NCBI GenBank assembly: GCA_017511925.1 | Contig: JAFWHS010000016.1 | Location: 1-64,000, forward strand | Source: Candidatus Saccharimonadota bacterium | GTDB lineage: Bacteria; Patescibacteriota; Saccharimonadia; Saccharimonadales; Saccharimonadaceae | Length of the DNA: 64,000 nt | Direction: 5' to 3' | Shown: piece by piece, positions 47,032 to 53,012 of the stretch | How positions within the stretch are numbered: position 1 is the stretch's first letter | Layout: each line of letters starts with the position of its first letter | Translations under genes and position numbers: made by a program | The notes under the pieces: generated by a model | Seen by the model: the letters and a program-made list of their open reading frames with translations, nothing else | What the model was told of the DNA's origin: nothing | Database searches by the model: none

Positions 47032-47158
47032 AAAAAAGGACACCGCGAGGTGTCTAATCCTTGTCATAACCCGGGCGATACCCGAAAATTACTTACGCGG
47101 TGCCCATCACTGAGTACCGCAAAGCCAAAGCTATGACAAATTTTAAGGATTAGACACC
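47032..47158 (-). promoter_or_regulatory. Riboswitch-like structured leader with terminator switch, upstream of the TM2 operon
   Basis: On the minus strand TGTTATAAT (TATAAT 47167-47162) starts an RNA at about 47158. P1 is a 14-bp perfect stem, GGTGTCTAATCCTT (47158-47145) with AAGGATTAGACACC (47062-47049). P2 is GTCATA (47137-47132) with TATGAC (47068-47063). Inside are two hairpins: GCGGT (47120-47116)/ACCGC (47101-47097) and CGGG (47084-47081)/CCCG (47075-47072). The 3' strand of P1, GACACC (47054-47049), can pair instead with a second GGTGTC (47044-47039) that is followed by a run of six T: an intrinsic terminator. P1 and terminator exclude each other, so a stabilised P1 would turn the operon on. 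The start codon is 40 nt beyond the T run. No known class was recognised. Confidence 0.72.
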
Positions 47159-50963: not shown

Positions 50964-50996
50964 CATAAAAACCTTTACAAAAATAAAGTTTTTATG
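50964..50996 (+). terminator. Probable terminator after truB
   Basis: Imperfect inverted repeat CATAAAAAC...GTTTTTATG around a short A-rich loop. It is A/T-rich with T residues in its 3' arm; its end overlaps the TG of the next promoter. Confidence 0.5.
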
Positions 50997-50997
50997 T

Positions 50998-51293
50998 TAT
51001 ACTTAAGGTGCAACAATTCAATAATATAAGTCACTAGTTATTTTTATAACATCGGCTTGAATATAAATGGCATCGTAAGGAAGTCTAATGTTCAAGCTAG
51101 TTCTAGCTAGTGATGATTATTGGATTGTTGCACCCCTTGCGGTGCCATTTTTGTGCATGATCCAAATAAATAAAATAAGTGGCACCGCAAGGAGGATTGG
51201 GGGCATTAGGATACTAGCCAGAGCCATGGCTAAGTAGAGTGTGGGGGAAATAAAAAGTAGGGGGGACATAACAATACTAAGTGAGGTAGCCAC
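50998..51293 (+). promoter_or_regulatory. Long structured leader of the FISUMP surface-protein gene (334-bp gene-free stretch)
   Basis: TGTTATACT (TATACT 50998-51003) starts the RNA near 51007. P1 is 19 bp with one wobble: GGTGCAACAATTCAATAAT (51007-51025) with 51116-51134. Inside are CACTAG (51032-51037)/CTAGTG (51107-51112) and GCTTGAA (51055-51061)/TTCAAGC (51091-51097) with a 29-nt apical loop. The 3' strand end GCACC (51130-51134) can pair instead with GGTGC (51141-51145), followed by CATTTTT: a competing terminator. A third alternative is a perfect 13-bp stem 51135-51147/51180-51192 that would break the terminator and partly cover AAGGAGG at 51189-51195. From 51196 to 51293 nothing is recognised except GAGGT before the ATG. 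Confidence 0.6.
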
Positions 51294-53012
51294 ATGAAGA
51301 TCAAGCACTATCAACCATTAACCTATATTACTTATAGTATAGTAGGTATTACAGTATTAGCTGGTATGTTATTATCATGTAATATACCTATCTTCCCAGG
51401 AATAAGCGTTAATGGTTCTACATCAGCTCTCACTCAGACTACTACAGCCAATGCTGCCATCCGTGTTAAATCCACCTGTTCTATGACCGCTAATATACAA
51501 CCAGGTGAAGAACATACAGCTACTATGATCAATGGACAATATAAAGAAGATATAGGACTAACCACTATACAAACCTTCTGTAATGATCCCAATGGCTATG
51601 CAATCTATGCTATAGGCTATACTGGAGAAGATGCAGGAGTAGCAGAAGGAACTAATACAGTCCTGCATAGTAATGCACTAGGTAGTACTTACGATATCAT
51701 TACTGGCACTAGTACTAATGGACTAGATAATGATGATACTTCTAACTGGGCTATGAAACTAACTGCTCTAGGTACTACTGATACTTATAGACCTAATATA
51801 CTAAGTGATGATAATGGATCATTCAGTGACTACCATATAGTACCATCTACCTATACCAAAGTAGCTTCCTATCCTACTGCTACTGACCTAGATAATCCTG
51901 CCAGTACTAGACTAGGCTCTAACCTCACTACTACCTATGCTGCCTATATCTCCAATACTCAACCTGCTGGAACTTATGAAGGGCAGGTGAAGTATGTATT
52001 AGTTAACCCAAGTACTATGGAAACACCATACTATATGCAGAATGTAGATGAGTGGGGCGATACTATAGCCATAGGTCAGGAAGTTACAGTCTATGACATA
52101 AGAGACGAGAAATCCTATACAGTGAGACGTATGTGTATGAGTGGCACTGGCAATAGTGGCTGCAACATAAACGACTCTATGCTCTGGATGACCCAGAATC
52201 TAGACCTAGACTTAGACAAGAACACAGAACTCACTTCAGAAGACACTGATCTTAATGTAGTAGATGATAAGGCTTATAATACTGGATACACTAAAGATGC
52301 ATTAGGCGTTATCCACTGGGCTCCAGCTACAACAACTATTACCAGCGTCAACACTTCAACCGGTAGGTTCAATGGCTGGGCGAGCAATTATAACGTCGCT
52401 TACTCCGCTGACCCAGATGCCGGCAACCCAGATAACCCATGGTATGCTACAGGTGAAGCTTATAACTCCAACCTATGTTATGTAAGCAGCAATAACCAAA
52501 CCTGTAACTACCTTAACGTAAACAACACTGTAGCCCCTACCTACTTTAGCCACACAGTCTTCACTACTAATGGTAATCATGGTAAGATTGGAAACTACTA
52601 CAACTGGTCTGCAGCGATAGCCTCCAACAATTCCAGTGGCTATAGCACTAGCACCTACAATAACATAGCCAATAACCCTCAGAACTCTATCTGCCCTAAG
52701 GGTTGGCGGTTGCCCACTATATCTAGTGTAGCGGCTAAGAGCGAATTCGCCAAATTAAATAATGTATATAATGGCGGTAGTACAAGTGATGGTAATAAGT
52801 TAGTTCAAAGCCCACTTTACTTGGTCCGGTCCGGCTACGTGGACGATGGCGCCCTTCTTAACTACGCAGGGTACAACGGCATCTACTGGTCTAGTACAGT
52901 GAGCAATGCTTACGGCGCATACACCTTGAGCTTCCGTAGTGATAACGTTAACCCTGCCGGCAGCTACAGCAGGCTCGTCGGCTGGTCAGTGCGCTGCGTC
53001 TCTGATTATTAA
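51294..53012 (+). CDS. Secreted FISUMP-domain surface protein (572 aa)
   Basis: A signal peptide or anchor (about 10-32) is followed by an N-terminal domain with two cysteines (VKSTCSMTANI, IQTFCNDPNGYAIYAIGY). From about residue 275 the Fibrobacter succinogenes major paralogous (FISUMP) pattern appears: MLWMTQNLDLDL, then YYNWSAAIA, ICPKGWRLPTIS, IYWSSTVSNAYGAYTLSF and the end VGWSVRCVSDY. This C-type-lectin-like fold is used for ligand binding. Base composition changes within the gene: the 5' two thirds favour codons ending in A or T (CTA, ATA, ACT), the last 200 nt are much richer in G+C. That mosaic suggests a separately exchanged or diversified 3' end. It is not in an operon. Confidence 0.82.
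   Translation: MKIKHYQPLTYITYSIVGITVLAGMLLSCNIPIFPGISVNGSTSALTQTTTANAAIRVKSTCSMTANIQPGEEHTATMINGQYKEDIGLTTIQTFCNDPNGYAIYAIGYTGEDAGVAEGTNTVLHSNALGSTYDIITGTSTNGLDNDDTSNWAMKLTALGTTDTYRPNILSDDNGSFSDYHIVPSTYTKVASYPTATDLDNPASTRLGSNLTTTYAAYISNTQPAGTYEGQVKYVLVNPSTMETPYYMQNVDEWGDTIAIGQEVTVYDIRDEKSYTVRRMCMSGTGNSGCNINDSMLWMTQNLDLDLDKNTELTSEDTDLNVVDDKAYNTGYTKDALGVIHWAPATTTITSVNTSTGRFNGWASNYNVAYSADPDAGNPDNPWYATGEAYNSNLCYVSSNNQTCNYLNVNNTVAPTYFSHTVFTTNGNHGKIGNYYNWSAAIASNNSSGYSTSTYNNIANNPQNSICPKGWRLPTISSVAAKSEFAKLNNVYNGGSTSDGNKLVQSPLYLVRSGYVDDGALLNYAGYNGIYWSSTVSNAYGAYTLSFRSDNVNPAGSYSRLVGWSVRCVSDY

Follow-up and report, generated by a model that had tools for sequence, protein, structure and literature searches.

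The window analysed here is a stretch of 64,000 nucleotides of contig JAFWHS010000016.1, from the Candidatus Saccharimonadota assembly GCA_017511925.1. Saccharibacteria are ultrasmall bacteria of which little is known; those in culture live on other bacteria, and to our knowledge the regulation of their surface proteins is largely uncharted. The forward strand of the window carries a gene for an exported FISUMP-domain protein, which passes the TIGR02145 cut-off and stays below that of Pfam PF09603 (21.5 vs 33.9). On the 5' side of this gene, a structured leader spans positions 51007-51152 (Table 1). A promoter-like sequence precedes it and places the predicted transcript start at about 51007, that is, at the first base of P1, a helix of 19 bp with one G-U pair (51007-51025/51116-51134) at the base of an arm of about 39 bp. 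For the 127-nt arm the folding energy is -50.2 kcal/mol (z -8.6), equalled by 0 of 200 shuffled sequences, and the 188-nt stretch as a whole gives a z of -10.4 against shuffled sequence. A preliminary description of this DNA had proposed such a P1 closing a long arm with two inner helices, both of which are present far beyond the shuffles; the apical loop, which it put at 29 nt, measures 23 nt when this copy is folded with its conserved segment L held open.

Table 1. Features of the leader, its downstream gene and a distant relative in the window
Feature	Position	Strand	Basis
Distant (older-form) family member before TM2-domain gene	47034-47156	-	Leader-family model, 23 bits, E 0.005
Sigma-70-like promoter TTTACA-18-TATACT	50974-51003	+	Consensus scan
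P1, 5' strand, at predicted transcript start	51007-51025	+	Folding; family covariation
Hinge bulge (A-rich in family)	51026-51029	+	Folding
P1b, 5' strand (partner 51104-51114)	51030-51040	+	Folding
P2, small U-rich hairpin GTTATTTTTATAAC, alternative to top of P1b	51037-51050	+	Sequence
P3, 5' strand (partner 51088-51098)	51054-51064	+	Folding
L, conserved segment of the apical loop, GGCATCGTAAGG; complement of T	51069-51080	+	Family comparison
P1, 3' strand; last five bases GCACC double as 5' half of terminator	51116-51134	+	Folding
Terminator hairpin GCACC-CCTTGC-GGTGC	51130-51145	+	Consensus scan
T, CCTTGCGGTGCC; partners GCACC (terminator), L or D	51135-51146	+	Family comparison, folding
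U-tract	51148-51152	+	Sequence, consensus scan
D, TGGCACCGCAAGG; third, downstream partner of T	51180-51192	+	Folding
FISUMP-domain exported protein gene, 572 aa	51294-53012	+	TIGR02145, 41.7 bits, cut-off 41.65
3' gene end resembling variable region of a diversity-generating retroelement	52821-53011	+	Alignment to template repeat 1, same genome

The foot of P1 leads directly into a putative intrinsic terminator. The preliminary description had read GCACC and GGTGC with the following T run in this way, and a consensus scan recovers the element (GCACC-CCUUGC-GGUGC plus CATTTTT, 51130-51152), with 0.3 such sites expected by chance. Its stem is short, 4-5 bp, and its formation costs 5.3 kcal/mol relative to the full P1. 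With a start near 51007 the terminated RNA would be about 146 nt long, close to the 145 nt or so previously anticipated. The same element takes part in a further pairing that had gone unnoticed, since the apical loop carries AAAUGGCAUCGUAAGG, the complement of CCUUGCGGUGCCAUUU, so that L can pair with T. For the window leader the folding energies are -26.3 kcal/mol for the L-T duplex and -6.7 kcal/mol for the terminator hairpin, leaving aside what it would cost to move L towards T; in terms of these modelled energies L-T would be the favoured pairing, provided that the arm can bend.

A leader search of the 832-kb host genome returned ten further sites with the same 3' part. All 11 copies stand before a FISUMP gene or, at contig ends, before the start of one, and the leader is present at 11 of the 12 host FISUMP genes whose start is visible, the sole exception (C24:126 kb) lying beside the first of two retroelements described below. 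Set side by side, the copies follow an invariant plan (promoter, P1, loop with GGCAYCGTAAGG, P1', CACC(C)CTTGCGGTGCCATTTTT and, for the third time, the loop motif), with arms that are unrelated. An exact two-part pattern recovers 10 of the 11; in the eleventh (C21:20197) L is longer by one T. The possibility that the loop provides a start codon (ATG GCA CCG TAA) was rejected, the ATG being lost in 2 of these 11 copies.

With a relaxed pattern the leader was found in 47 of the 174 genomes of the genus, in up to about 30 copies per genome, and the controls gave 0 matches. A scan of named sequences added at least 114 stretches; among the matches listed, nearly all are from Candidatus Saccharibacteria, many from ruminant gut. 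The same matches include rabbit-gut contigs labelled Clostridia, Oscillospiraceae or Dysosmobacter (L109, L140, L154, L168 and L196), in which the leader accompanies a gene for a large exported protein, with a FISUMP domain in L109; ORFs adjoining the leader in L109, L140 and L154 look by eye like serine recombinases. Either horizontal transfer or wrong binning would account for leaders on these Firmicutes-labelled contigs. Matches in Pantoea and Undibacterium were taken as chance. Viral contigs gave no match to the leader family, and pattern R1, run over 379 genomes of the phylum, gave only two matches outside the order, both by eye inside coding sequence, hence nothing convincing there. After removal of P1 runs below 10 bp, of nested duplicates and of four chance or other-family sources (Pantoea, Undibacterium, G200 and G228), 162 of 172 parsed instances were used. 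The observed stretch is thus confirmed as real, and it belongs to a large RNA family. The recurrence before FISUMP genes of a structured leader with alternative pairings at the terminator is what the preliminary description had proposed to look for, and it bears out that part of its reading. Rfam 15 holds no family matching at or above the gathering cut-off, tRNA excepted, the remaining matches being weak and far below cut-off. A literature search, to which subscription papers were mostly external, found no description of this RNA, and in the available portion of PMC11665869 riboswitches appear only as engineering tools.

The arms share no sequence across the family, and P1 is kept through compensatory change. 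In the 191 matches to L plus T, which include antisense readings of near-palindromic sites, a P1 run of at least 10 bp occurs in 157, vs 4.3% in dinucleotide shuffles. In an alignment of 46 of the 52 listed sequences, 11 of the 12 P1 pairs show changes on both sides. Over P1 and L-T together, 95.3% of the cells of this alignment are paired, falling to 35-45% when the partner is slid by 1-3 columns; changes on both sides amount to 139 cells vs 40.7 in shuffles, and the pooled covariation score is 0.41 vs 0.17 in shuffled and at most 0.10 in slid alignments. Folded with L open, the 162 copies converge on one layout. P1a, of about 18 bp, is followed by a bulge on the 5' side with 62% A, then by P1b, by a hairpin or segment rich in U, and by P3; the loop measures about 25 nt, and L mostly starts 5-7 nt into it. 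Structural counts come from 148 of the 162 folds, 116 of them with a hinge. Of the 148 junction segments, 110 contain TTTT, where shuffling gives about 45.

The position of the promoter relative to the arm is fixed as well. In the 161 of 162 copies with upstream sequence, a TATAAT-like hexamer lies close to the P1 start in 158, and in 148 one with at most one mismatch ends 5 nt (130 copies) or 6 nt (18 copies) before the T that opens P1. Because this -10 box stands at a fixed spacing before P1, which is the best evidence for P1 as the 5' end, the transcript very probably starts there.

These observations bear on two rival readings. A repeat acting at the DNA level, in recombination or gene conversion among FISUMP genes, would fit the 86-93% identity found between some loci of the host genome from T to the signal peptide, the arms of these loci being different; the compensatory changes and G-U pairs, the fixed promoter spacing and the low-copy older forms before unrelated genes make it highly improbable. 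The covariation and the promoter spacing are likewise at odds with the stretch being a remnant of a duplicated gene end. The second reading, a processing or stability element whose long duplex, a substrate for RNase III, seals the 5' end ahead of an ordinary weak terminator, draws on the very stable arm at the transcript start. We consider it very unlikely, as it leaves unexplained the conserved loop, the covariation of L with T and the conservation of CC for pairing with T, to which we now turn.

Because the cores of L and T were fixed by the search patterns, only flanking positions can test the L-T pairing; the test used five of them, all lying beyond the core that the first search pattern had fixed. 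Within their own locus, L and T pair at 4.63 of 5 positions, vs 4.44 +- 0.03 after shuffling of T within genomes (0 of 2000 shuffles as good), and 4.20 of 5 when T is dealt over all copies (again 0 of 2000). Loci from the scan of named sequences had a partly fixed L at the tested positions, a property which within-genome shuffling keeps, and the relatedness of paralogues inflates these shuffle tests, though several pair types have nonetheless changed. Genomes with a single T sequence carry no information on the point. Among the seven genomes with at least four copies and several T sequences, p was at most 0.045 in six (G171, G161, G209, G239, G234 and G250) and 0.096 in G197. Some copies pair poorly, the mean in G171 being 4.0 of 5 positions. 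The diversity of T itself varies, with one T in all copies of G205, CAMKRV, CAMVCW, CAMVDR and the host genome, and nearly one per locus in G171, G234 and G250.

The other partner of T is kept independently of P1. The four inner terminator pairs with GGTG are conserved in 159 of 162 copies, and the terminal CC in 77 of the 78 copies whose terminator loop is 6 nt or longer, where the P1 partner of the last C is G in only 14. Since CC is kept although its P1 partner is rarely G, P1 and the terminator overlap by only a few pairs. P1, which the preliminary description had listed among the competing structures, is therefore not the main rival of the terminator, and L takes that role; the notion of competing structures before a surface-protein gene stands, with the partners reassigned. 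The covariation of L with T within loci, together with the retention of CACC where P1 does not need it, means that T has two selected and mutually exclusive partners, L and the CACC at the foot of P1.

Judged from sequence, the stretch thus combines the features expected of an attenuation leader: it lies downstream of a promoter and 5' of a gene on the same strand, it carries an intrinsic terminator, and a conserved pairing, L-T, excludes that terminator. We lean, if modestly, towards the view that it belongs to a new RNA family of transcription attenuators acting in cis, with L and the foot of P1 as rivals for pairing with T. Comparison shows a transcript that very probably starts at P1 and forms an extended arm (P1a, an A-rich hinge, P1b, the U-rich P2 and P3) with L in its apical loop. 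T, lying directly 3' of P1 and ending in a tract of five U, can pair either with CACC, forming the terminator, or with L, forming a pseudoknot. On the proposed mechanism both pairings would act during transcription. In the first case an RNA of about 146 nt would be released and the gene would be off; in the second the terminator would be blocked and the polymerase would read on. A signal, whether a metabolite, a protein or an RNA touching L, P2 or the hinge, would set the balance, the output being the expression of individual FISUMP surface proteins. This attenuator requires L to reach the foot of an arm of some 39 bp, for which the arm might fold back at the hinge. Such geometry finds no support in the dimensions of the arm, because the lengths of P1a (about 18 bp) and of P1b plus P3 (about 20 bp) correlate negatively across copies.

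The same two pairings could be assigned the opposite roles. The L-T helix itself would then be the stem of a pseudoknotted terminator, or would seal the released transcript at its 3' end, and CACC-T pairing would oppose it. The L-T helix is indeed 12 bp long, GC-rich and adjacent to the U-tract, with which A-rich bases before L can pair. We nevertheless regard this exchange of roles as unlikely, given that the bases before L are no richer in A opposite U than at a greater distance, except at -2 and -3, that the arm is complete before T emerges and that the CACC-GGTG hairpin is recognisable as a terminator by itself. Another proposal gives the terminated RNAs of about 146 nt a function in trans, as small RNAs that would use their loop or tail to bind T, L or D in other FISUMP leaders, thereby coupling their expression. 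Cross-pairing is possible in the several genomes in which all copies share one T, and D would be a common extra target; where T differs among loci, however, L follows its own T, a finding with which a dimer of RNAs from the same locus would remain compatible. Overall, action in trans seems quite unlikely.

Under the favoured attenuator reading, a third structure would come into play after the choice has been made. In the window, T forms a perfect 13-bp stem with D (51135-51147/51180-51192), as the preliminary description had noted in proposing it as antiterminator. Of the 148 copies in which 140 nt or more follow T, 89 (about 60%) have a D that pairs with T at 11 or more of 13 bases, vs 5 of 148 in shuffled downstream sequence; such a D occurs in 11 of 11 copies of the host genome, in 1 of 10 of G161 and in 0 of 5 of G197. 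Being transcribed after the U-tract, the T-D stem cannot decide termination at this site, and since it is also rare or absent in some genomes it is no general antiterminator. In the many copies which have it, this second L-like segment may instead lock T in the read-through RNA.

Several known systems resemble parts of this arrangement. The ZTP, fluoride and preQ1 types are pseudoknot-gated transcriptional riboswitches, and the leader shares with them a pseudoknot that would withhold one strand of the terminator. The family described here differs in having no Rfam match, arms free in sequence, many copies per genome and surface-protein genes downstream. T-box riboswitches also present a long arm followed by a terminator/antiterminator, and L UGGCACCG resembles part of the T-box bulge UGGNACCGCG. 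UGG and ACCGCG are nevertheless not kept in L, which varies with T (ACGGC, GGGC, CACAAGG), and the leader arms hold no conserved sequence able to serve as specifier or tRNA-binding site. Membership of the T-box class was rejected, the invariant UGGN/ACCGCG bulge being absent and Rfam giving no T-box match. In IncB/IncIalpha plasmids, leader pseudoknots act on translation initiation and are met by antisense RNA. There too the loop that caps a long hairpin binds a segment further downstream, whereas T here is one half of a terminator. The leaders would form a new family within the cis-acting attenuators, set apart by its copy number, by arms that vary freely beside a locked loop-tail code, and by the kind of gene downstream.

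The family extends beyond FISUMP genes in an older form. A model built from the 46 leaders finds matches in other genera and families of the order, in 12 of 148 genomes at E <= 0.01, 3 being judged by eye not to be real; weak matches L288-L290 were likewise set aside as unrelated by eye. In the window the model also detects, on the reverse strand, the element that the preliminary description had placed at 47032-47158 and considered to work on the same principle, thus endorsing the connection (Table 1). An older-form pattern matches 48 of 394 genomes of the bacterial family, in 19 of 61 genera, and none of the controls. After duplicates were merged and L318 and L320 dropped as chance, 30 of 42 rows remained as a curated set, in which the promoter is present in 29 of 30 and the terminator half in all 30. 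L-T pairing in these copies scores 3.67 vs 2.96 in shuffles (0 of 2000). Downstream genes are mixed, including TM2 and other (small) membrane proteins and, by eye, DNA methylases (L283, L311). Because it heads ORFs of the TM2, other membrane-protein and methyltransferase-like kinds, the older form is not tied to FISUMP. In two of these copies, L284 and L285, CTATGC before L and GCATAG after it could form a further pseudoknot, interleaved with P3 by eye.

In the genus, an N-terminal hydrophobic segment is found in 100 of 103 ORFs following the leaders vs 127 of 354 background ORFs, and 47 of the 52 intact proteins scanned (51 intact ORFs among the 103 plus that of the window) match the FISUMP model. 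The host genome has two RVT_1 matches, both on contig C24 and not on that of the window. This contig carries two diversity-generating retroelements, L301 (1659-5714) and L302 (1855-5029), with FISUMP or FISUMP-like targets; each comprises a reverse transcriptase with template and variable repeats, in which 19 of 20 and 28 of 29 mismatches fall at template A. Such elements are known in the candidate phyla radiation, according to PMC10221324. The 3' end of the window gene aligns with template repeat 1 over 188 nt, 56 of them A, with 28 mismatches, 21 at template A. It is not a fresh copy, because the other 7 mismatches are at non-A template bases. In L016 the corresponding figure is 22 of 34, and other paralogues differ at all bases. 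Since the mismatches in the window gene and L016 are mostly at template A, some leader-bearing genes, including that of the window, look like remote, perhaps former, retroelement targets.

Taken together, these elements allow a broader and tentative picture, which we think possible though doubtful in its entirety. The leaders would represent a hitherto undescribed cis-regulatory RNA class, native to Saccharibacteria, that has multiplied to tens of copies in a genome and controls retroelement-diversified surface proteins one by one in bacteria that are probably host-attached. In genomes where each locus has its own loop-tail code the switches would act independently, and in those with a shared code they would be linked, amounting to an RNA-based choice of receptors. 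The family offers a testable regulatory layer, a marker for genome annotation and possibly a new ligand-sensing RNA, and it is a structured RNA with sequence-free arms in which loop and tail co-evolve at each locus.

Between D and the start codon, finally, the window contains G runs (GGGGG and GGGGGG, within 51186-51280), which are also seen in relatives such as L043 and might possibly form a G-quadruplex leader.
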